This document shows, piece by piece, positions 13,510 to 25,416 of a stretch of 48,359 nt of DNA (position 1 is its first letter; each line of letters opens with the position of its first letter). The translations under genes and the position numbers were made by a program. This DNA is from Verrucomicrobiia bacterium (GTDB lineage: Bacteria; Verrucomicrobiota; Verrucomicrobiia; Verrucomicrobiales; DEV007). Under the pieces are notes generated by a model. That model was not told where the DNA came from, did no database searches, and was given only the letters and a program-made list of their open reading frames with translations. The stretch spans positions 16,859-65,217 of the forward strand of contig JAGROX010000043.1 of NCBI GenBank assembly GCA_020440025.1, in the 5' to 3' direction.

Positions 13510-13662
13510 GGCGCCGGAAATTTGGGTAGCGCTTTCCGTAGGCGAAAAGGGGTAGAATCGAGCGATGCTTCGGGCGGGGCTCAGAAACTTTTTTGGATTT
13601 CTTCCAAGAAAAGTCTGGCTGGCGTGTCTGGAAGGAGAAGCAGATGAGTTTTTGCCCCCACC

Positions 13663-14250
13663 GTGAGCCAACCCCATCCACAGTCCAGCGAGTCATCGTC
13701 GGCCATTCCCGTGATGCCCACCTCCAGCCAGTCTGACGCGGCCGGGGCGGCGGAGAAGCCGACCCTGAGAGCGCTGTTCGAGACGGAGGAAAGTCCGCTG
13801 CTTCGCTACGCCTTTTCCCTGATCGGCCGACGAGCCATCGCGGAGGAGGTGGTCCAGGAGGTCTTTCTCCAACTCCACACCAACTGGGACAAGGTGCAGA
13901 ATCCCCAGGCCTGGCTCTACCGCAGTGTGCGGAACCGGGCCTTCAATCATCATCGGGATCACAAGCGAGAGGTGTTGGTCGACGGGGAACAGGAAGTGGA
14001 ATCGGAAGCCGCGACAACTGAGGCCCTGCTCCACCGGATGGAGGCGGCGGGCTTTTTGCGATTGCTCCTCGCGGAACTGGAGGAGGCGGATCGCCAACTC
14101 GTTCAATTGAAATATTTCGAAGACCTCCGCTATCGCGAAATCAGCGAGCGGACCGGTCTCAGCATCGGCAATGTGGGCTACCGCCTGCATCACATCCTCA
14201 AGCAGCTGGCCGGAAAGCTGCGCCACCTCGGAATCGACGGCATGTCATGA
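13663..14250 (+). CDS. ECF-family RNA polymerase sigma factor
   Basis: This is a 195-aa sigma-70-family protein with only regions 2 and 4. Region 2 spans about residues 36-100 (LLRYAFSLIGRRAIAEEVVQEVF, then NPQAWLYRSVRNRAFNHHRD). Region 4 spans about 134-190 (LEEADRQLVQLKYFEDLRYREISERTGLS). The N-terminal 30 residues are Ser/Pro-rich and may not be translated if the real start is ATG 13711; GTG 13663 is the longest option. The stop overlaps the start of the next gene by four bases (ATGA), so the sigma factor is translationally coupled to its likely anti-sigma protein. Confidence 0.92.
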   Translation: MSQPHPQSSESSSAIPVMPTSSQSDAAGAAEKPTLRALFETEESPLLRYAFSLIGRRAIAEEVVQEVFLQLHTNWDKVQNPQAWLYRSVRNRAFNHHRDHKREVLVDGEQEVESEAATTEALLHRMEAAGFLRLLLAELEEADRQLVQLKYFEDLRYREISERTGLSIGNVGYRLHHILKQLAGKLRHLGIDGMS

Positions 14251-17200
14251 ACTCACACGACGACAACGAACCCTTGCACCCCTACATCGAGCCGGAAATC
14301 GAGGCTCGACTTACCGCGCTCGTCCTCGGCGAGGCCTCGGATTTTGAACGAGAAGAGCTGGATCGCCTCATCGGCGAGCGCCCCGAACTGGGAATGTTGC
14401 GGAGCCGCCTCGGAGCGATTCACGGTCTGCTCCGCGAAGTGGCCAGCGGTGAACCGGACGAGGGGAAAGGGGAGTGGAAGCTTTCGGACGAGAGGCGCAG
14501 CGCCTTGCTGGCGGTGATCGATGGCGAGGCGGAGCCGGATGAGGACGTCGAGCCGGTCGTGGTGATGGCGGAGCCGAAGCGGGGGAAGAAAAGCCGGGTC
14601 GCGGTGCTGTGGCAGATTGCTGCCTGCCTGGCGATTGCTGCGGTGTTGTTTGGCATAACGATGCCAGCTAGCACAAGAATTCTGAAGAGAGCGAAGCGGG
14701 TGGAAGCCGACCAGAGTTGGGCCTTTCAAGAAGCGGAAGTGCGTCAGTCTGAGAGTGCTCGCTATGGAGATTTCGACAATGGGATGGGGGATTCGCTGCA
14801 GGGTGCGTTTGAATATCTACCTGACGAGGGAAACTCGCAGTCCCTGGTCAGCCGTGAGGTCGCCGTTCCTGAATCAACCACCGAGATCAATCTCCCTGAA
14901 GTTGCCGACAAAGCGGAAACGGAAGTGGGCTTTGGGATGGCCGGCGTCGATTCCCTTTCGGTTGCCTCCGTTGCCAAGCCGATGGCGATCCGGCCCATTC
15001 TGCCGGCGGAGGTGACGGAGTCTCTGAAGAGCCCAAGCCAAAATCGGGAGTATGGTATCGCGACCGATCAGAAGGGGGTGAGCCTTTTGTCTTCTTTGGA
15101 TGTTGATGGGGATGATTTCATGACGGTCGGGGACTCTAGACGCAAGGCTGGTCGGGTGGGCGCATTGGATGGCACTGTCGCTGCTGCAGCGGGCGGTGAG
15201 ATCCTTTTGGGATCGGCCAATGAGGGGAGAGTAGCGGTCTCGAACCGAGAGTCACAAGTTGATGCTGGTGCGAAAGATTTTAGCAGGGATGTCAGTACTG
15301 AAGGGGCGGCGGTGGAGCTGAAGATGCCGGGCAATCTCTATGGCTCGGCGATTTCCAGTTCCGGTACCATCAGGGCCAGCGGTGGAGCCAGCTCTGGGGG
15401 AGAGATCCAGCTCGACGAAGATCTTGCCGCAGTGAAACTTCGTGAGAGCGAGCCGACGCAGGGGACGGAAAGAGTCACGACAACGAAGGATGCGCTGGAT
15501 CGGAGACGGTCAGGTAGCCTTTCCGCAAGTGCGGGAGAGAATGGCGGCACCGTTTCCGTGGGTGGAGGTTTTACGGGTTCACTCGCTGCCATTTCGGATG
15601 GCGGTTATCGTGAAGTGGGTCAAAAGAGTGGGACGATCGCCGTAGGTCGTGACCTCTTTGAGATTGACTTGAACGCGCATGCCCCCGAAGTCGCGGAACT
15701 CGATGGATTCATCAATTACGGAAGTGAAATCACCCCGAGCGGCGAGCCAATGGGCGGTAAGTCGCCGGAAGGTGCTAGTCGCTACGTCTCTCGTCTTAGC
15801 GAACAAGTAGTGAAGGCCGATGAAGCAGCGGTTCGAGGCCAGCAGTTACTGTCCGACGGTGACCTCGAGGGGGCCGTTGAGGAACTGAGAACGGCGAGTG
15901 AGTTGATCCCGGATGCCCCCATCACAGCGGACCGAAAAGGTGCGTACATCGAGAAGCTTGCAGAAGCGTCGACGAAACTGGCCCGGATGCGGGCGGAAGA
16001 AGCCCAGTATGGTGAAGCGCAGGCGCTACTGGAAGACGTTCTAGCTCCGGGTATGGATCCCAACCATTTCGAGGCGAAGAAGCTGCTGGAACAGATCAAT
16101 GACCCCGAATACTACTCGCCCGCATTGACTCCGGAACATTTGAATCGGTCTAAGCAGGTTGAAATAGCGCTGAGAACCGCCCAGGGATATGTTGACCTCG
16201 GAGACTTGGATCGCGCCAAGGAAGAGTATGACAAGGTCCTGAATGCAGATCGCTATAACTCCGCTGCCCGTCGCGGAATCGAGGAAGTGGATCAGGAGCG
16301 CTTGAACTACTACGAAACGGCGCGCAATCAAATGCGCTCAGAGTTCATGCGCCGCGTGACCGAGGGATGGGAATTGTCAGTTCCAGCAACCTCGGTTGAT
16401 ATCAAATCGGGGACAGATGTCACGGCGGAGTCTCGCCCCGCGTTGGGCACCGAGGTGAGGGAACTCGCTCGACAGAATCAGGAGGAGGCTTTGATCGAAT
16501 CGGAGCCAGGCGTGTCAGGAGAAGCAGAATTGGGTGGAACGAAGTGGGGGATTCCGATGGCCGGTGGTGACCTTGATCGCGATTTCGAACGTTTCCAACC
16601 CGCTCAACAGGAATGGAACGAGTATCCAAATGGTGTAGCTGAGGACGATTCGCTTCCGGCGCTGAAACAAATCATGGATCTGGTGCCACATGTCGTGGGG
16701 GGAGGAAATGCGAGGGGATCGTCTGACACGAATCCGTCAAGTGTCTGGTTTGATGTGGCCACCGTCTCCGGCCCCCAGTCGGAAAGCCAACCGACGACAC
16801 CTCCCACGAGCCCGGTTTTTCCCGTCAACCCGGCGACGTCCGCTTCATTTGAGACTCGGAATGTGGGACGAACAGCTGAGATGGAAATGTTGGGGGAGCC
16901 CTTGGGAGCCGAAGCGTTGACGGTCGGACTACGCAGCGGGTCGTCTGCATTGGATGGCGACTTGATCGATGAGTTGATCACCGATTCAAAGACGCAGGTC
17001 GAAGTTGGAAGTCGTTTCGGCAATACTACCATCAATGCGGAGGTGTCTCACTTTGGCCTAGCAGGTGTCTTCACCGATCCACAGTTCGTGGCGGTCTCAC
17101 GGGCACTGGGAAAAGACTTCCGCACCGCTCTCCCGGCCGGCCTCGACGAAACGGCCGCCGCTGACGAGTCGTTCTCGACTTTCTCTCTTCACGTCAGCGA

Positions 17201-18476
17201 CGTGGCCTTCAAACTCGCCCAGGCGTCCCTGGCCAAAGGTGAGTGGCCCGACGCCGAGCGGATCCGGATCGAGGAATTCGTCAACGCCTTTGACTACGGC
17301 GATCCGATGCCGACCCAAGCGGACCGGGTGGCCTGTCAGGTGGAGCAGGCGATTCATCCCTTTCTCCAGCAGCGCAATCTGCTTCGCGTTTCCATGCGGA
17401 CGGCGGCAGAGGGACGGGCGGTGAGCACGCCGTTACGCCTGACCTTGCTGCTCGACAATTCGGGCTCGATGGAGCGACTTGATCGGCAGGAAATCGTGCG
17501 CCGCGCCTTCGCCACCCTGGCGGGACAACTGCAGGCAACCGATCAGGTGACGCTGATCAGTTTCGCCCGTCAGCCTCGGCTCCTCGCCGATGCGGTGAGC
17601 GGTGCCGAGGCAAACCGGCTGGTTGAGTCGGTCGCCCAGCTCCCCAGCGAAGGGGGCACCAACCTGGAAGCGGCCTTGAAACTGGCCTTTGAAAAAGCCA
17701 AGGAACATCAGACTGGCAACGCCCAGAACCGCATCGTGCTGCTGACCGATGGGGCTGCCAATCTCGGCAATGCCGAGCCGGAAAACCTGTCGCGGATGAT
17801 CGAGTCGATGCGTCAGGCCGGGATCGCCTTCGACGCGGCCGGGATCGGAGCCGAGGGGCTCAACGACGAGATCCTCGAAGCGCTGATCCGGAAGGGCGAC
17901 GGTCGCTATTACCTGCTCGATCGTCCGGAGGATGTCGATGACGGCTTTGCCAAACAGATCGCCGGGGCGCTGCGTCCGGCAGCGAAGAATGTGAAGGTTC
18001 AGGTCGAGTTTAATCCAGACCGGGTCGGCACCTACAAGTTGCTCGGGTTCGAAAAACACCTCCTCAACAAGGAAGACTTCCGCGACGACACCGTCGATGC
18101 CGCCGAGATGGCCGCCGCCGAAGCCGGAGTGGCCGTTTACCAGGTCGAGCCGAAGGCGGATGGCCAGGGCGACATCGGTTCGGTGTCGGTACGATTTCTC
18201 GACCTGGCCTCCGGTCAGATGGTGGAAAAACGCTGGCCCATTCCCTACGTGCCGAACCCGGCTAGACCGGAGCAAGCGGCGACTTCGCTTCGTCTCGCCA
18301 CCGTGGCCGCCCAGTTCGCGGCGAAACTCAAGGGTGGTCCGCTCGGCGACGTCGTTGATTTGGAGGAACTCGATCGATTGACCGCATCCCTGCCCGAGTC
18401 GGATCAGAAATCCGAACGCGTCCAGCAACTCCGCGAAATGATCCAGCAAGCGCGGCAGTTGGAGGGCAGCCGTTGA
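14247..18476 (+). CDS. Anti-sigma/VWA (YfbK-like) membrane protein with secretin-like segments
   Basis: This is a 1409-aa mosaic. Residues 1-70 resemble the N-terminal anti-sigma region common in PVC bacteria (LTALVLGEASDFEREELDRL). A single membrane helix follows at about 118-138. Residues about 150-510 are low-complexity, rich in Gly, Ser and Glu. Residues about 517-694 form a TPR-like helical region (GQQLLSDGDLEGAVEELRTA; LDRAKEEYDKVLNADRYNSA). About residue 935 there is FGLAGVFTDPQFVAVSRAL, which I associate with verrucomicrobial secretins. The YfbK-type domain follows (WPDAERIRIEEFVNAF, about 992), then a VWA domain with the metal site D1070-x-S-x-S (LLDNSGSM), and a DUF3520-like C-terminus. 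VWA domains mediate metal-dependent protein binding. It likely holds the upstream sigma factor at the membrane until a periplasmic signal arrives; this is inferred from coupling and domains. Confidence 0.85.
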   Translation: MNSHDDNEPLHPYIEPEIEARLTALVLGEASDFEREELDRLIGERPELGMLRSRLGAIHGLLREVASGEPDEGKGEWKLSDERRSALLAVIDGEAEPDEDVEPVVVMAEPKRGKKSRVAVLWQIAACLAIAAVLFGITMPASTRILKRAKRVEADQSWAFQEAEVRQSESARYGDFDNGMGDSLQGAFEYLPDEGNSQSLVSREVAVPESTTEINLPEVADKAETEVGFGMAGVDSLSVASVAKPMAIRPILPAEVTESLKSPSQNREYGIATDQKGVSLLSSLDVDGDDFMTVGDSRRKAGRVGALDGTVAAAAGGEILLGSANEGRVAVSNRESQVDAGAKDFSRDVSTEGAAVELKMPGNLYGSAISSSGTIRASGGASSGGEIQLDEDLAAVKLRESEPTQGTERVTTTKDALDRRRSGSLSASAGENGGTVSVGGGFTGSLAAISDGGYREVGQKSGTIAVGRDLFEIDLNAHAPEVAELDGFINYGSEITPSGEPMGGKSPEGASRYVSRLSEQVVKADEAAVRGQQLLSDGDLEGAVEELRTASELIPDAPITADRKGAYIEKLAEASTKLARMRAEEAQYGEAQALLEDVLAPGMDPNHFEAKKLLEQINDPEYYSPALTPEHLNRSKQVEIALRTAQGYVDLGDLDRAKEEYDKVLNADRYNSAARRGIEEVDQERLNYYETARNQMRSEFMRRVTEGWELSVPATSVDIKSGTDVTAESRPALGTEVRELARQNQEEALIESEPGVSGEAELGGTKWGIPMAGGDLDRDFERFQPAQQEWNEYPNGVAEDDSLPALKQIMDLVPHVVGGGNARGSSDTNPSSVWFDVATVSGPQSESQPTTPPTSPVFPVNPATSASFETRNVGRTAEMEMLGEPLGAEALTVGLRSGSSALDGDLIDELITDSKTQVEVGSRFGNTTINAEVSHFGLAGVFTDPQFVAVSRALGKDFRTALPAGLDETAAADESFSTFSLHVSDVAFKLAQASLAKGEWPDAERIRIEEFVNAFDYGDPMPTQADRVACQVEQAIHPFLQQRNLLRVSMRTAAEGRAVSTPLRLTLLLDNSGSMERLDRQEIVRRAFATLAGQLQATDQVTLISFARQPRLLADAVSGAEANRLVESVAQLPSEGGTNLEAALKLAFEKAKEHQTGNAQNRIVLLTDGAANLGNAEPENLSRMIESMRQAGIAFDAAGIGAEGLNDEILEALIRKGDGRYYLLDRPEDVDDGFAKQIAGALRPAAKNVKVQVEFNPDRVGTYKLLGFEKHLLNKEDFRDDTVDAAEMAAAEAGVAVYQVEPKADGQGDIGSVSVRFLDLASGQMVEKRWPIPYVPNPARPEQAATSLRLATVAAQFAAKLKGGPLGDVVDLEELDRLTASLPESDQKSERVQQLREMIQQARQLEGSR

Positions 18477-18528
18477 GGCGAGTGAGGTTTTCTCAAAGTT
18501 CAAATCCAGTCATTCATACAAACGACAA

Positions 18529-21500
18529 ATGAATATCCATTTTTGCCTGTTCGGGCGCGCAGCTCTGCCCCACCTTGCGATCGCCATGATGGCCGTGTCG
18601 GCAATGGCCCAGGAGCCACCCGCCGCGCCCCAACCGAAACCCCAAGCTTCCGTAGGCGCCTCCATTGGGGAGAGTGGAGCGGGCCGTATCGTAGTCGAAG
18701 CCCGAGGCGAACTACCGAAACCGGCAGTGTTTTACGCCACCAAGATCGACAACCAGGCGACGGTCTCGGCTGACCAATTGACCTACGAAGCGAAGTTCGA
18801 CGTCGAAATCCTCCAAGGCGGCGCGAAAACTCTGAGTTACTGGTTGAAGGGGTGGGATGAAATCACGGCGGTCGAGGGGCCCTCGGTGAAAGCGTGGTCG
18901 GTGCGGCAGGATGATGAAAAACGTCGCTACCTTGATGTGGAGATCAAGACTCCGGCGCTTGCTCACGAGTTCACCGTTCGCATGAAGACCCGGAAACTGA
19001 AACTGCCGGCCTCGCTCCAGGTGATGAATTTCGCTCCCGCCGGAAAAGAATCGGCCAGCCTTCATCAGGTGGTAGCGCTGAATTATCAAAGCGGTGTGAC
19101 CGGCCGGGTTTCTGAGATCGTTGGGTTCCTCCCGGTCGAAAAGGCGACGGGCCAGCCGGATCGTTTCCAATCCGACATCGGCGGCAAATTCATCCTGAAC
19201 CTCAACCGGGCTGGAGCAGCGTCGGAAGCCGTCGAGCTATCGGGCTTCTCCCTCAATGGCCAGATCGACGACAAACAGGGCACAGGCGTTTTTCAGGTCC
19301 AGGGTACCGCCATCGTTCGCGCGGCTGGGGCGTCCATTGCCATCCTCAAGGGCCGCGCCGCCCTGAGCCGCGTTCCCGCCAGCGCGAACTACCGGATGGA
19401 ACTCGCGGAGGAAGGCGGGGCGCCGGTCTTTCGTCTCGTCTTTCCCGAGCCGGGCGAGTTTCCCGTGTCGATCGACTTCGTGGCGAGCGTGGTGGATTCT
19501 GGCGAAGCCTGGCGACAGATGGATTTCACGGTCGCGGCCAGCGCGGTGGTTCCGATGACCTTGCGTGGACTGAAACCCGAGATCGAGTTTTCCGGCGAAC
19601 CGGCGGCAGTCGTTCCGATTCGCCAAGGAGCCGATTGGCTGGGATTTCTGCCCGCCACGGGCCGGGCCAACTTCACTTGGAAAGCCGCCCGCCAAACGGG
19701 CGAGGGGCGACTCTTTTTCACCACCACCGCCAAGATCGAGGCCCAGATCGGGGCCGGCTTGCTGCGCCAGGATCACCAGATCGACTACCGGATTCTCCAG
19801 GGACAACTTGATGCCCTGTCGATCGATCTGGCCGGCGACGACGGCGAAGTGCTCGAAGTTCAGGGCGCCAACATCACCGCGTGGAAGGTGATCGAAAAAG
19901 AGGGGGGGCGCGTTCTGGAGGTGACGCTGAGCCAGCCGATCACAGACGTCGCTCAGTTGCGGATCCGCACGCAGACGGCGCTCGACGCCTTCCCGGTTCG
20001 GTTGAAGGGGATGCGGCTCACGCCTGAGGGAGCGATCCGGCATTCCGGTTATTTGCGGCTTTCCAATATGGGCTCGGTGCGGCTGGAACCGGCGGGCCTG
20101 ACCGGACTCACCCAACTGGCTCCGGAGCAGTTCCCGGGCGAGGCCTTGTCGGCGAGGCAGGTCTTCGTCTATCGATTCCCCTCGGCGGCCTACGATTTCG
20201 AGATCGCGGCCGATCGGGTGCAGCCGGAAGTGGGCGTGTCCGAATTGGTGCGTTATCAGATCACCGAGACGGATCGCATCATCAGCGCCGACATCGAGCT
20301 CGACATCCGCGAGGCGCCGATTCGGGAGTGGGCCATCGGCATTCCCGAGGATTACTCGGTCGTGGCGGTGACCGGTTCCGGCGTGGCAGACTACATTGTC
20401 GGATCCGACGCTGAAAACGGCCAGCGCAGCTTGAACGTGATCTTTTCCGAGGAGATCGGCGGACGGCAACTGGTGTCAGTGACCATGGAGAAAAACGAAG
20501 TCGCCGCCGCGGGCGACTGGGTGCTGCCACGCTTGGGATTTCCCGACGCCAAATCGATCCGGGGCGACATCGGCGTGGTGGGTGCGCCGGGTTTCCGCAT
20601 CGCCGTCGGAGCGACCGATTTGCTGGTGGAAAAACCGCTCTCCTATTTCCCGAATCCCGTTCCCCATCTCCAACAAGCGTTCCGGATTCGCGAACCCGCC
20701 TGGACGGCGACGATGCGGATCGAACCCCTCGAGAAAAGCGTTCAGGCCGATGTGTTTCACCTCTACTCGCTCAGCGAAGGTACGGCCTACGCCAGCGTGG
20801 TGGTGAACTATTTCGTGACCGGCGCGCCGGTTTCCGAGTGGGAACTCACCGTCCCTGAAGTCATGGGCAACGTGATGGTTGACGGCCAAGACGTGCGGAC
20901 CTGGCGCCAGGATGGCGATACCCTCAAGGTTTCGCTCCATCAACCCGTTATCGGAGCCTACACCCTGCTTGTCACGGCGGAAGAAAAGCTCGGCAGCACG
21001 GGAGGCCAACTGGTGGCGGGGAAGGTGACTCCGCTGGGGGTACAGGGAGAGCGGGGCTACGTTCAAGTGGTCAGCCCGATGCAGGTGAAAGTGACGCCGG
21101 CGACCCGGTCGGACGGCTTGCTCGAACTCGATTCCCTCGAGCTGCCAGCCGAATTCCGCCTGCTCAGCGCAGCGCCTTCGTTGGGCACTTGGCAATACAC
21201 CGAGCGCCCCTTCGAACTGGCGGTCGACGTCGGCTGGTTCGAACCGGGATCGACCTTTTCCCAGGTGGTTGAGTTTTCCGAAGTCTCCAGCCAGGTTTCG
21301 TCCGATGGCGATCTGGTCACCGAGATTCTTTACTATGTGAAAACACGCGGTCTCCCCGCGCTGTCGGTGGAGCTTCCCGATTCGGTCCGGCTCTGGGCGG
21401 TGTCGGTGGCGGGAAATGCGGTGAATGCCAGGCAGTCGGAAAAGGCGACCCTGATTCCTCTGCCCGGGGCGGTCGATCCGAATACTCCGGTCGAAGTCCG

Positions 21501-24500
21501 TTTGCGCTTGGGACGTCCGGCGGTGGATGGAAAGAGTCCGCTGCTGGCGCTGCCCAAGGTGGCGGCTCCGGTGTTGAAAACCGAGTGGCGAATTACCGGC
21601 GATGAATCGCAAGTGCTCGTTCCGGTGGGTGGCAACGTCGATCCGCCCGAGCCTGTGCTGGCGCCATCGGGATTCACCCGACTGGCCCGTCACGGCCTTG
21701 CGGCCCTGAGTGCTATCGTGCTGATGACCTTGACGGGCGGATGGCTCGCGAACTCAATTGTCCGTCGCCATCAGACAATCGGCTTGGTCGCCGTGATTCT
21801 GGCCGTGGGAGTGGCCATCTGGGCGGCCATATTCTCGGCGAATCAAACGGACGCGGTGGCACCCTTGCAACTCAGTCTACCCGTCCTGACCCCGGGAGAG
21901 GGGATCGAGTTGGAGGTCCACACCATGGCGAGTTGGCAAGTCGGTTTGTCGTGGTGGGGTGTCGTCATCGGTCTGGCGGGTATCGCCGCCATCGTCGCGC
22001 CTTTGCTCCGCTTTGATCTTCAGAAACCGCGCCTCATTCAGGTGGCCGGGTTGGTTATGGTCACGGTGGGTTTGCTGCTTCAGAGGGGCAGCGATCCGTG
22101 GTTCTTCGCGGGGGTGGCGGCGATCCTAACGCTGCTCTTGCTTTTGCCCCGGGGACGGGATTGGGTCAAGAACGCCCCGTGTCCCTCGACGGAAACGGCG
22201 TCGGCTGCCGCAATGCTGGCGATCTGCGTTTTGACTCCCGGCATCGCCAATGCCGCCGACTTCGTCCCGTCCGGTTTCTCGGCTGCTCAGGAGATTCGTC
22301 AGACTTGGGAGATTCGCCACGATGAAAAGCGGCTCTTCGCGACCGGAACCATTCAGATCACCGGCACCAGTGGCGACAGCTTCATTTTGCTGAAAGCTCC
22401 CGCCGTCCTGACCCGGTTCGAAGGAGCGGGCCTGAAGGTTTCCAAACAGGAACTTCCCGGCAAGGAGGGGACGGCTTATGTCGTCAGTATTCCGGTCGAC
22501 CCGGCCGTGCCGCCGGCGGATTATCGGGCGACCTTCGAATACCAGCTTCCCATTGGCGAACTGTCCGCCGGGATCGGGCTGCCGACCGGGCTGGCGGCGG
22601 TGCAGGAGGTGGAGGCGAGCTATGATCAGCCCGGTTGGGAATTCGGTAGCGCCTCGGCGGTGCGGGTCGAACCGGGTAGGGACGCCAATCAAAGCGCCGC
22701 CAAGCTCCTGCTGGGACCGATGGCCAAGGCGGTCATCATGCTGAAACCGAAGGCGCGCGATATCACCTCCGAGGTGACGCAATTCTTTGTGGAGGCCTCA
22801 AATCTCTACCTGCCCGGTCCCGGCGTGCTCGATGGTCGTCACCGGATTCAGGTGCGGCCTTCCCAGGGCGTGGTCGACAAGATTTCGATTAGGGTGCCGG
22901 TCGGATTGACCGTCAGCGAAGTGACGGGGCCGGTCGGCTCCTGGCAGTTTGATGCCGAGACCGGCGCTTTGGCGCTCAACATCGAGCCCGCTCAATCGAA
23001 GGCCTTTGTCCTACAGGTCGACACCCAGCGAGGACTCGATCCGTTGCCCGTCGATATCGATCTGGCACCCATCCGGGTCGGCGACGCCTCTGGCGAGGTC
23101 GGACTGGTTGGGCTGGCCTTCGGACCTGATGCTCAGCCGGAGAAAGTCGAAGCCACCGAGATGTCGGCGGTGAATCTCGGTGATTTCGATGCCTCGATGC
23201 TTCCCGACGATCAGACCGTGCTGCATCGGGTGTTTCGCTATGGAGCGGAAGGCGGAAAGCTCAATGTCCGCGTCGCCCCGGTGGCGCCCGAGGTTCGGGT
23301 GACCAGTCGGCAGGTTCTTTCCCTCGGCGATGAACGAGTCGTGCTGGGAATCAATTGCACGGCGGAGATCACCCGGGCCGGCTTGTTCCAGCTCAGTTTT
23401 CCGCTGCCCGATGGGATGGAGGTCGAGTCGCTCACCGGCGCCGCGCTGCATCACTGGTCCGAGCTGAGCGAAAACGGTCAGCGGCAGATCGTGCTTCATC
23501 TCAACGGAAAGACGATTGGATCCCAGTCCTTCGCCATTTCACTGGCCGGTCTCGCTCCGCCCGAGGCGGGCGATTGGGAGATTCCCCGGTTTGCCTTGAA
23601 CGAGGCGACCCGCCAGACCGGCGACTTGGTGGTTCGGCCGACCACCGGGATTCGGCTGCAATCCGTGACGCGCCAGAATCTCTCCGAGATGGATCCCCGC
23701 CAGCTCGGTGGCGAGGCCCAGGGCGCCTTGGCGTTCCGCCTGTTGCAGCGCGACTGGAGCCTGACGCTCGGAGTTGAGAAACTGGAACCGTGGATCACCG
23801 GTCAGGCGCTTCACAATGTGACCCTCCGCGAGGGCCAGACCCGCGGTTCGATCACCGCCATTCTCAACGTGCAGAACGCCTCGATTCGCAGCCTGCCGAT
23901 CTGGCTGCCCATCACCGATCCGGACGAGATCAAAACCCTGCGGGCCGGTGGAAAGGCCGTCAGCGATCTAGTCCGGACCGCTCCGGATTCGGATGTCTGG
24001 GAAATTCAGTTCAAACGCCGCGTCGTCGGCGACGTCGAGGTTCACATCGACTACGAGCGACGGGGCGATCGGGAAAACGACATCGAGACACTGCTGCCGG
24101 CGGAGTTTCCCTCCGTCCGCCAGTTGACCTATCACTTCGGGGTTCGGACCAGCGGACGGCTGGAGTTGGAGACGGGCACCTTGCCCGCCGGTTGGCAGCG
24201 GGCCGAGTGGAACGCCGTTCCTTCCAGTTTGCGCGACGCCGGCGGATTTGCGGCGGCCCCGGCCCTGACCCTGCGGGCCACGACGCCCGAAGAGGGAGCC
24301 GAGGTCATCGCCCGGCGTCATTCCCTGGCGGAATCGCTCAAGCTGCGGGTCGCCAATGGAAACCTGACGACTGTCCTGTCACCAATGGGCGACGAACTGA
24401 CCGCGGTTGATCTCACCATGCAGGTGGTGCAGCGAAGCGGCCTCATCGTGGGTTTGCCGGCCGGTGGAGAGTTGTTCAGCATTTTCGTCAACGGCGAAAG

Positions 24501-25416
24501 CGTTCATTCGGTTCGCCAGGGGGATGCCTGGCAGTTTTACATTCTGCCCGGAGTTGATGAGCGAACCGCAAGCGTGCGTCTGGTTTACCTGGTGCCTCGC
24601 GATCAACTGAGTCGACTGTCGCTGGTCAGTCCGCAGCTCAACATTCCCTTGGAAAACATCACTTGGCGGGTCATCGCGCCGAAGGGATTCGAATTGATCG
24701 ACGAAGAGGGCGATCTCGAGCGGAAGTCCGGTGAGTTTTTGCAACCCTTCGATCGGGCGAGTTACCTGAACAAGGCCCGAGGCAAGCGCCAGGAGCAGGC
24801 CCAGCAGGCAGTCCAACTGCTGGAGCAGGCCAATCAGATGCTCCAGGACGGCGACAACACCCGGGCCGGATGGGCCTTGAACAGCGTGGCCAATCAATAC
24901 GCCCTCGACGCGGCCTCCAACGAGGATGCCCGGGTTCAGTTGGAAAACTTGCAGACCCAGCAGGCCATCGTCGGTCTCAACACTAGGCGGCAGCGTCTTC
25001 TGCTCGATCACGCGGTCGAGGACTCCGATTTTGCTGAAAACGATCAGGTCCGCCAAGGAGCTGCCGCCAACCCGGTGCTGCAACGCGGTGCCATGAACTA
25101 CCGCCCGGAGGAGCTCGTTCAGTTGCTCCAGGGCAACACCAACGAGGACAACCTTGTGCTCCAGCAGATCGCCGGACGCATCGTTCGCCAGTTGCGCGCC
25201 ACGGAGGCGGCGCCCCAGGCCATGACCATCACCCTGCCGGAAGAGGGAATCGTGTACACCTTCCAACGCGCCGTCCAAGTGGCGGAGAACGCGCCGCTGT
25301 CCCTCGCGCTTCGTTTTGCGCCGACCCACGGCATTCCGATGGGCCGGGTGATTCTCTTGCTGATTCTCATCGCGGCTTTGGCGGGAGGCATTGTCTTCAA
25401 GTTTCGGCGGGCGTGA
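18529..25416 (+). CDS. Giant (2295-aa) exported multi-pass membrane protein of unknown function
   Basis: No known family is recognised. A signal peptide (about 1-27, ending AMA) leads into about 1,025 residues of beta-rich, Ig-like or adhesin-like sequence. Five hydrophobic segments follow at about 1056-1075, 1083-1104, 1137-1160, 1170-1184 and 1190-1206. A stretch at about 1224-1245 (AAAMLAICVLTPGIANA) looks like a second signal peptide. A second beta-rich half of about 800 residues comes next, then a helical, Gln-rich coiled-coil part (about 2080-2170). A final membrane helix (about 2272-2292) and a short basic tail close the protein. The gene follows the VWA gene by 52 bases on the same strand. 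It looks like two exported proteins joined end to end, with both beta-rich halves outside the cytoplasm. A role as the sensor or structural partner of the sigma/VWA module is a guess. Confidence 0.8.
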   Translation: MNIHFCLFGRAALPHLAIAMMAVSAMAQEPPAAPQPKPQASVGASIGESGAGRIVVEARGELPKPAVFYATKIDNQATVSADQLTYEAKFDVEILQGGAKTLSYWLKGWDEITAVEGPSVKAWSVRQDDEKRRYLDVEIKTPALAHEFTVRMKTRKLKLPASLQVMNFAPAGKESASLHQVVALNYQSGVTGRVSEIVGFLPVEKATGQPDRFQSDIGGKFILNLNRAGAASEAVELSGFSLNGQIDDKQGTGVFQVQGTAIVRAAGASIAILKGRAALSRVPASANYRMELAEEGGAPVFRLVFPEPGEFPVSIDFVASVVDSGEAWRQMDFTVAASAVVPMTLRGLKPEIEFSGEPAAVVPIRQGADWLGFLPATGRANFTWKAARQTGEGRLFFTTTAKIEAQIGAGLLRQDHQIDYRILQGQLDALSIDLAGDDGEVLEVQGANITAWKVIEKEGGRVLEVTLSQPITDVAQLRIRTQTALDAFPVRLKGMRLTPEGAIRHSGYLRLSNMGSVRLEPAGLTGLTQLAPEQFPGEALSARQVFVYRFPSAAYDFEIAADRVQPEVGVSELVRYQITETDRIISADIELDIREAPIREWAIGIPEDYSVVAVTGSGVADYIVGSDAENGQRSLNVIFSEEIGGRQLVSVTMEKNEVAAAGDWVLPRLGFPDAKSIRGDIGVVGAPGFRIAVGATDLLVEKPLSYFPNPVPHLQQAFRIREPAWTATMRIEPLEKSVQADVFHLYSLSEGTAYASVVVNYFVTGAPVSEWELTVPEVMGNVMVDGQDVRTWRQDGDTLKVSLHQPVIGAYTLLVTAEEKLGSTGGQLVAGKVTPLGVQGERGYVQVVSPMQVKVTPATRSDGLLELDSLELPAEFRLLSAAPSLGTWQYTERPFELAVDVGWFEPGSTFSQVVEFSEVSSQVSSDGDLVTEILYYVKTRGLPALSVELPDSVRLWAVSVAGNAVNARQSEKATLIPLPGAVDPNTPVEVRLRLGRPAVDGKSPLLALPKVAAPVLKTEWRITGDESQVLVPVGGNVDPPEPVLAPSGFTRLARHGLAALSAIVLMTLTGGWLANSIVRRHQTIGLVAVILAVGVAIWAAIFSANQTDAVAPLQLSLPVLTPGEGIELEVHTMASWQVGLSWWGVVIGLAGIAAIVAPLLRFDLQKPRLIQVAGLVMVTVGLLLQRGSDPWFFAGVAAILTLLLLLPRGRDWVKNAPCPSTETASAAAMLAICVLTPGIANAADFVPSGFSAAQEIRQTWEIRHDEKRLFATGTIQITGTSGDSFILLKAPAVLTRFEGAGLKVSKQELPGKEGTAYVVSIPVDPAVPPADYRATFEYQLPIGELSAGIGLPTGLAAVQEVEASYDQPGWEFGSASAVRVEPGRDANQSAAKLLLGPMAKAVIMLKPKARDITSEVTQFFVEASNLYLPGPGVLDGRHRIQVRPSQGVVDKISIRVPVGLTVSEVTGPVGSWQFDAETGALALNIEPAQSKAFVLQVDTQRGLDPLPVDIDLAPIRVGDASGEVGLVGLAFGPDAQPEKVEATEMSAVNLGDFDASMLPDDQTVLHRVFRYGAEGGKLNVRVAPVAPEVRVTSRQVLSLGDERVVLGINCTAEITRAGLFQLSFPLPDGMEVESLTGAALHHWSELSENGQRQIVLHLNGKTIGSQSFAISLAGLAPPEAGDWEIPRFALNEATRQTGDLVVRPTTGIRLQSVTRQNLSEMDPRQLGGEAQGALAFRLLQRDWSLTLGVEKLEPWITGQALHNVTLREGQTRGSITAILNVQNASIRSLPIWLPITDPDEIKTLRAGGKAVSDLVRTAPDSDVWEIQFKRRVVGDVEVHIDYERRGDRENDIETLLPAEFPSVRQLTYHFGVRTSGRLELETGTLPAGWQRAEWNAVPSSLRDAGGFAAAPALTLRATTPEEGAEVIARRHSLAESLKLRVANGNLTTVLSPMGDELTAVDLTMQVVQRSGLIVGLPAGGELFSIFVNGESVHSVRQGDAWQFYILPGVDERTASVRLVYLVPRDQLSRLSLVSPQLNIPLENITWRVIAPKGFELIDEEGDLERKSGEFLQPFDRASYLNKARGKRQEQAQQAVQLLEQANQMLQDGDNTRAGWALNSVANQYALDAASNEDARVQLENLQTQQAIVGLNTRRQRLLLDHAVEDSDFAENDQVRQGAAANPVLQRGAMNYRPEELVQLLQGNTNEDNLVLQQIAGRIVRQLRATEAAPQAMTITLPEEGIVYTFQRAVQVAENAPLSLALRFAPTHGIPMGRVILLLILIAALAGGIVFKFRRA

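Follow-up and report, generated by a model that had tools for sequence, protein, structure and literature searches.

Shuffled fragments of resident envelope proteins in the VWA protein of a sigma factor operon shared by Verrucomicrobiota and Planctomycetota

In the RpoE/RseA system, an inner-membrane anti-sigma factor holds the sigma factor and reports on the assembly of outer-membrane proteins, with a client peptide activating DegS in trans. A second arrangement is represented by the anti-sigma factors PupR and FoxR, whose secretin-like STN domain binds an STN domain on a partner in the outer membrane (PMC11637429). The latter is the closest precedent for the locus described here, with which it shares an extracytoplasmic function (ECF) sigma factor, a one-helix transmembrane (TM) anti-sigma factor, predicted in our case, and a secretin-like, putatively periplasmic domain (PMC11637429). 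The locus occupies positions 13663 to 25416 of a 48,359-nucleotide stretch of DNA (the window) from a Verrucomicrobiia bacterium (GenBank assembly GCA_020440025.1, contig JAGROX010000043.1). It comprises genes for a sigma factor, for a protein with a VWA domain and for a giant exported membrane protein, and the middle of the VWA protein is assembled from pieces of other envelope proteins. A description of this three-gene set was not found in the literature searched.

According to the list of open reading frames (ORFs), the sigma factor gene (13663-14250; 195 amino acids [aa], GTG start), the VWA protein gene (14247-18476; 1,409 aa) and the gene for the giant (18529-25416; 2,295 aa) are all on the + strand, as is every other feature for which window coordinates are given below. 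The first two ORFs overlap by 4 bases, and the gap between the second and the third is 52 bases. Among relatives whose contigs reach far enough, the same order recurs in other genera, other families and Planctomycetota. A scan of named genomes retrieved the operon from Haloferula, Roseibacillus and Opitutaceae within Verrucomicrobiota and from Rhodopirellula, Stieleria, Neorhodopirellula, Fuerstiella and others within Planctomycetota. Since the order is kept so widely, the three genes are a module rather than a chance assembly. For fetched giants with more than 400 bp of upstream sequence, the VWA gene adjoined the giant in 79 of 81 loci; one of the two exceptions, L170, is a contig of genome G035, which carries its VWA gene and sigma gene on another contig. 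Of the 60 loci that extend far enough to show the sigma gene, 58 have it in the adjacent position; the exceptions are L197, where it overlaps an overly long VWA ORF, and L206, where the VWA frame is broken. An earlier note, made from the sequence alone, had proposed a coupled module of these genes, and coordinates, spacing and gene order in two phyla bear this out; the outcome that the note said would refute it was not seen, as giants of close homology do not occur apart from the sigma/VWA pair. More distant giants (25 to 30% identity) occur elsewhere in the phylum. In a tree of the VWA domain with midpoint root, the planctomycete sequences form one clade (SH-aLRT, 98) beside the genus of the window, a placement that fits a single transfer between the two phyla, with the root leaving its direction unsettled.

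The VWA protein begins with a cytoplasmic stretch (aa 1-110; 14247-14576), a predicted anti-sigma domain, which carries a conserved block (EARLTALVLGEASDFEREELxRL) ahead of the membrane in homologues with complete N termini. Hydropathy indicates a single TM helix (aa 119-137; 14601-14657), and nearly all homologues have one such helix and a VWA gene adjacent to or overlapping the sigma gene. The C-terminal half (17124-18473) is of the YfbK type, as all three defining models scored above their Pfam cutoffs: vWF_A (PF12450) with 48 bits, VWA (PF00092; 17439-17930) with 60 bits and a DNSGS MIDAS motif, and YfbK_C (PF12034; 17967-18458) with 96 bits.

The middle of the protein (about aa 140 to 960) had been taken as a plain linker in the earlier note; it turned out to be a collage of shuffled fragments from other envelope proteins that the same genome encodes, namely, a type IV pilus secretin of the PilQ/Amuc_1098 type, the pseudopilin-like Verru_Chthon A and a haemagglutinin. 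A piece of Verru_Chthon A comes first (aa 166-206, donor aa 1171-1211; 14742-14864), matching its counterpart in the same genome with 44% identity (E value, 4e-5). It is followed by a piece of a filamentous-haemagglutinin-type exported protein (aa 286-389; 15102-15413; 40 to 42% identity, 8e-14), whose donor is a 479-aa member of TIGR01901 on contig C13 of the same genome. The next piece matches the C-terminal half of the resident secretin (aa 466-506, donor aa ~735-775; 15642-15764), and the largest covers the N-terminal TPR region (aa 498-735, donor aa 44-289; 15738-16451; NF042912, 8e-73) with 63 to 69% identity to the PilQ/Amuc_1098-type secretin on contig C138. A second Verru_Chthon A piece (aa 763-832, donor aa 285-368; 16533-16742; 5e-15) precedes two further secretin pieces, at about aa 854-880 (positions 667-693 of the hidden Markov model [HMM]; 16806-16886) and aa 885-956 (donor aa 587-651; 16899-17114; 50% identity, 6e-12), the latter having the resident secretin as the best of 40 compared. 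Overall, the protein scored 246 bits against NF042912, in fragments and out of order, compared with more than 750 bits and a secretin domain for a full-length secretin. The gene run beside the donor secretin looks, on reading its sequence, like the Amuc_1098-1102 pilus cluster.

Secretin pieces were detected at an independent E value (i-E) below 0.001 in 32 of 42 verrucomicrobial middles, a set that counts G042 twice (also as L213), and in none of the reversed or shuffled controls. Homologues hold differing pieces of the same secretin, 17 of 20 multipiece collages are out of order, and the identity, order and number of pieces vary between sister species. The Verru_Chthon A donor region aa 285-368 recurs in G003, G001, G024 and G012, and the piece in G003 is 75% identical to the protein of its own genome versus 69% to that of the window's genome (G000). 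The mid-regions of relatives reached at most 33 bits against TIGR02600 (Verru_Chthon A), for which full length corresponds to more than 332 bits. Several verrucomicrobial middles have the POTRA-like motif TRDQVxRREL, recognized by pattern only. Wzz and autotransporter-repeat pieces occur in other homologues, and the STN domain gave weak matches only, inside captured secretin pieces of relatives.

Identity between piece and donor (secretin, Verru_Chthon A) was up to 80%, and the donors are resident genes. Among a panel of 40 secretins (20 genomes), the resident one ranked first for 14 of 19 patches, nearly always as the same one of two paralogues; the L181 patch, for example, had its own secretin at rank 1 with 80% identity. 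In a tree of the TPR region, the resident secretin was the sister of four of the five patches with a sampled resident (G042, L220, L181 and L165), and the G000 patch was the sister of the pair of secretins from its genus. Six origins are required for the six patches in this tree, and a single clade, as expected from one old capture, was rejected by the approximately unbiased (AU) test (p-AU, 3.4e-6). An assembly chimera was also rejected, as collages are present, diverged and in frame, in genomes that are not metagenome assembled (such as Haloferula sp. BvORR071 and H. luteola). No description of such a capture process was found in the literature searched.

Once captured, the pieces were maintained. 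Between patch and resident secretin, pS was 0.60 to 0.87, pN was 0.19 to 0.26 and dN/dS was at most 0.26; synonymous sites are thus near saturation while the protein sequence is kept, demonstrating purifying selection on the secretin pieces. A pairwise dN/dS value includes the constraint on the secretin itself, but with silent sites close to saturated the entire nonsynonymous distance is still small, which means that the patch was itself kept. Neutral drift of a junk linker is disfavored by these values. The patch within 14247-18476 of the window and its secretin (L072) gave a pS of 0.84, which exceeds 0.75, and codon choice therefore differs between the two genes. Genome-wide, many further short Amuc_1098-type matches were seen in other proteins of 200 to 700 aa in G000 and its relatives, which suggests that reuse of secretin-derived modules may be common among these bacteria.

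Planctomycete collages draw on other donors. No Amuc_1098-type secretin piece was detected by the secretin HMM in 29 planctomycete middles, nor was a full-length secretin of this type found in the three planctomycete genomes searched. Compared with its own genome, the homologue L144 contains the TM helix and N terminus of a pseudopilin (DUF1559) common to dozens of genes and a C-terminal GspD piece (69% identity). Further pieces of L144 match a BamA-like barrel (26 aa, 77% identity), POTRA (38 aa, 66% identity) and a VWA/secretin-like protein. DUF1559 exceeded its Pfam cutoff in L143 and L168, and a pseudopilin-like TM helix and flank occupy the TM position in some planctomycete homologues. 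In L208, a secretin N-domain piece and a piece of a small lipoprotein were matched to its own genome. The motif YLxDDVQYF occurs in six planctomycete middles (L184, L215, L158, L144, L169 and L208); in the genome of L208, it matches an ORF for a lipoprotein-like product of 79 aa. Capture is also seen in a separate, unrelated ECF sigma/VWA pair (L098:4546-8293, contig C129 of G021), the secretin TPR piece of which is closest to the secretin of its own genome (56% versus 48%); further stretches of that VWA protein read, by eye, as Verru_Chthon A and BamA, and no match to the giant was found in the locus.

The sigma protein has region 2 (PF04542, 48 bits, 8.8e-13) and region 4 (PF08281, 49 bits, 5.3e-13), both over Pfam cutoffs, and lacks region 3, which together with its 195 aa makes it an ECF sigma factor. 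It scored 77.9 against TIGR02937 (cutoff, 42.9) and is 38 to 77% identical to its homologues in relatives. A strong motif shared with those relatives, which the earlier note had envisaged upstream of 13663, is present 5' of the gene: CCAAGAA-N13-GTGTCT (26 nucleotides [nt]; 13604-13629). Its general form, CYAAGAA-N13-GKGTCT, precedes the sigma genes of most homologues in both phyla, and its two blocks are equally far apart in 44 of 46 matching upstream regions. The first block reads CYAAG, as against the textbook GGAAC of ECF promoters. The position weight matrix (PWM; information content, 25.8 bits) scored 31.3 at this site versus 14.5 at the next best site in the window. Such a two-block promoter with fixed spacing predicts that the operon is autoregulated. 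An exact search of whole genomes returned two sites each in G000 (6.4-Mb assembly) and G001, a single site in G003 and no site in G002. In G000 and G001, the nonoperon site stands 14 nt 5' of the start codon for a secreted protein; the two proteins, of 145 and 146 aa, are orthologues with 61% identity (L294:1049-1486 on contig C415 of G000 and L293 on contig C146 of G001). In other genomes, several strong sites also lie close before small secreted proteins (L303, L311, L315 and L324), and a site in L304 is 90 nt before a gene for a 313-aa exported protein; lower-scoring sites are mixed. From where the sites stand, the sigma factor is predicted to control its own operon and a handful of genes for small exported proteins.

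The presence of the collage changes the view of what the sensor most likely senses. The reading we favor, which we hold to be credible but a little short of probable, is an autoregulated ECF sigma/anti-sigma switch for the assembly of envelope machines, with a sensor that carries decoys. It draws on the gene order kept in two phyla, the promoter motif, the repeated capture and selective maintenance of secretin pieces, the own-genome pieces of L144, L208 and L098, the secretin domains of system B (a further arrangement with giant-like proteins, described below) and the precedent of PupR and FoxR. The N-terminal domain of the VWA protein would hold the sigma factor at the inner membrane, and the collage, presumably in the periplasm, would display the copied fragments of secretin, pseudopilins, BamA and other envelope proteins. 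Most likely, these fragments would be decoys to which partners of the genuine machines bind, such as alignment proteins, chaperones, the beta-barrel assembly machinery (BAM) or a quality-control protease. If assembly were disturbed, the occupancy of the decoys would change, and the VWA/YfbK domain and the coencoded giant would relay this change, so that the anti-sigma factor would be cleaved or would release the sigma factor. The earlier note had suggested that the VWA domain might bind a periplasmic partner and thereby free the sigma factor. Judging from the promoter sites, free sigma factor would switch on its own operon, yielding more giant, and a few genes for small secreted proteins. In Akkermansia, PilQ is reported to be the outer-membrane protein of highest abundance and to have an N-terminal TPR part that resembles a BAM component (PMC4960237), so it is plausible that a copied TPR piece could bind partners from the pilus or BAM. 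We further propose, as a tentative idea, that self-mimicry is the sensing principle, the sensor being repeatedly rebuilt from pieces of resident envelope machines (secretin, pseudopilin and BamA). By the same principle, and put forward just as tentatively, planctomycete and verrucomicrobial members would carry parts of different resident machines.

Several observations weigh against a decoy-carrying switch. Family scans returned no anti-sigma model over cutoff for the N terminus of the VWA protein, so we infer the anti-sigma identity that the earlier note had suggested from the position next to the sigma gene, the conservation and the topology, which do agree with it. Ten of the 42 verrucomicrobial middles were without a secretin piece at an i-E below 0.001, and the donors are not only assembly machines but include haemagglutinin, autotransporter repeats and Wzz. 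The promoter motif was not seen before the scanned pilus, Verru_Chthon and system B loci, where no site scored above 9.3, so the sigma factor does not obviously drive the machines that it would watch. Its role as a direct regulator of these loci was rejected accordingly.

An alternative, which we consider unlikely, is that the collage serves as a long extracytoplasmic spacer that grew by ectopic recombination with abundant, multicopy exported genes; any exported fragment would then serve as long as it is soluble, and there would be no mimicry of a partner. The variation of pieces between sister species and the haemagglutinin and autotransporter repeats among the donors would be expected from such growth, which is also favored by the abundance of PilQ in Akkermansia (PMC4960237) and by the many pseudopilin genes of planctomycetes. 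However, a mere spacer does not account for the capture of nearly all patches from one of two secretin paralogues, for an amino acid sequence kept despite near-saturated synonymous sites or for the recurrence of secretin, pseudopilin and BamA pieces across both phyla and also in the unrelated pair of L098.

It is less likely still that the VWA protein belongs to the type IV pilus or type II secretion machine as a structural component or an adaptor. Equally doubtful is the corresponding arrangement in which its secretin-derived domains coassemble with the secretin ring or the pseudopilus and the sigma factor provides feedback on the amount of machine. Secretin periplasmic domains do self-associate (PMC11637429), G042, L220 and L181 retain TPR and N-domain pieces in full, and some planctomycete members have pseudopilin-like TM flanks. 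A separate gene arrangement, system B, points in the same direction: it encodes a 1,200-aa giant-like protein followed by a giant-like protein of 1,560 to 2,430 aa, to which secretin N-domains are fused (L048:9093-17359 on contig C156 of G000, L099, L102, L103, L104 and L105). These N-domains were closest to the resident secretin in all three cases compared. Many collage pieces, however, are 25 to 40 aa long and too short for a domain fold, the order of pieces is scrambled in most multipiece collages, and BamA and Wzz pieces are foreign to a pilus or type II machine.

The giant, which the decoy-carrying switch would use as a relay, has a signal-like N terminus and is conserved over its whole length in relatives. 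About six hydrophobic segments cluster at aa 1056-1246 (21694-22266; hydropathy, also in seven relatives), and a TM helix lies near the C terminus (aa 2274-2292; 25348-25404; hydropathy). The cluster is flanked by two homologous halves, identified by half-to-half cross-matches, that hold repeat unit 1 (aa 297-979; 19417-21465; AlphaFold pLDDT, 84) and repeat unit 2 (aa 1343-2023; 22555-24597; pLDDT, 86.5), both modeled as tandem beta-sandwich domains. A conserved helical insert in the C-terminal domain (aa 2076-2223; 24754-25197) includes a near-invariant EDARVQ stretch. The Pfam scan assigned the giant to no family and returned no enzyme or peptidase match. There was accordingly no Pfam sign of a zinc peptidase catalytic domain, and the structure search spanned parts of the model; a sequence search of the PDB with the giant profile gave no match. 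Modeled single domains resembled the N-terminal domain of M1 aminopeptidases (Z, 12 to 13; 3 to 4 Å over about 157 residues; for unit 1, Z about 12 and 3.3 to 4 Å), and domain pairs resembled Ost1/ribophorin I (Z, about 15) with a poor overall root mean square deviation. In these models, the units share the M1 N-terminal type of beta-sandwich at the level of fold only. That the giant is the main product, with sensing by its M1-like domains and the sigma factor and VWA protein setting its dose, seems very improbable: its end-to-end conservation, the near absence of exact motif sites elsewhere in the genome and the giant-like proteins of system B would suit this role, but it would go unexplained why the VWA protein has captured pieces again and again and kept them under selection.

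Usual sensors are single evolved domains, whereas here the sensor is repeatedly assembled from pieces of its presumed targets and its sequence is kept by selection. If the decoy-carrying switch is real, it would represent a new route by which signaling proteins gain specificity. Planctomycetota and Verrucomicrobiota would then have a regulator dedicated to envelope assembly, and no described counterpart of it was found in the literature searched. A giant beta-sandwich membrane protein that belongs to no Pfam family would also be tied to envelope assembly, and the collage itself would be a list of candidate machines.

Among known proteins, Ost1/ribophorin I and the N-terminal domains of M1 aminopeptidases have the tandem beta-sandwich fold of the giant units; the giant differs from them in identity (at most 18%), peptidase family matches (none), size and membrane layout. 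The donors, PilQ/Amuc_1098 secretin (NF042912) and Verru_Chthon A (TIGR02600), are represented in the collage by fragments only, far below family cutoffs and without the secretin channel. The VWA protein has all three domains of YfbK-type proteins (PF12450, PF00092 and PF12034) and adds to them a cytoplasmic domain, a TM helix, a collage of about 800 aa and coencoded sigma factor and giant genes. Family scans gave no match to RseA or RseB, and in contrast to RseA, where DegS is activated in trans, the client-like sequence here sits inside the putative anti-sigma factor itself. The CSS anti-sigma factors combine a beta-solenoid with a C-terminal STN domain and a transducer partner; here, the C terminus is VWA/YfbK and the partner gene encodes the giant. 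Finally, PupR and FoxR rely on one stable STN domain and a TonB-dependent transducer, whereas this operon has no transducer gene, pairs a VWA/YfbK half with a giant partner and carries shuffled, recaptured fragments of several machines.

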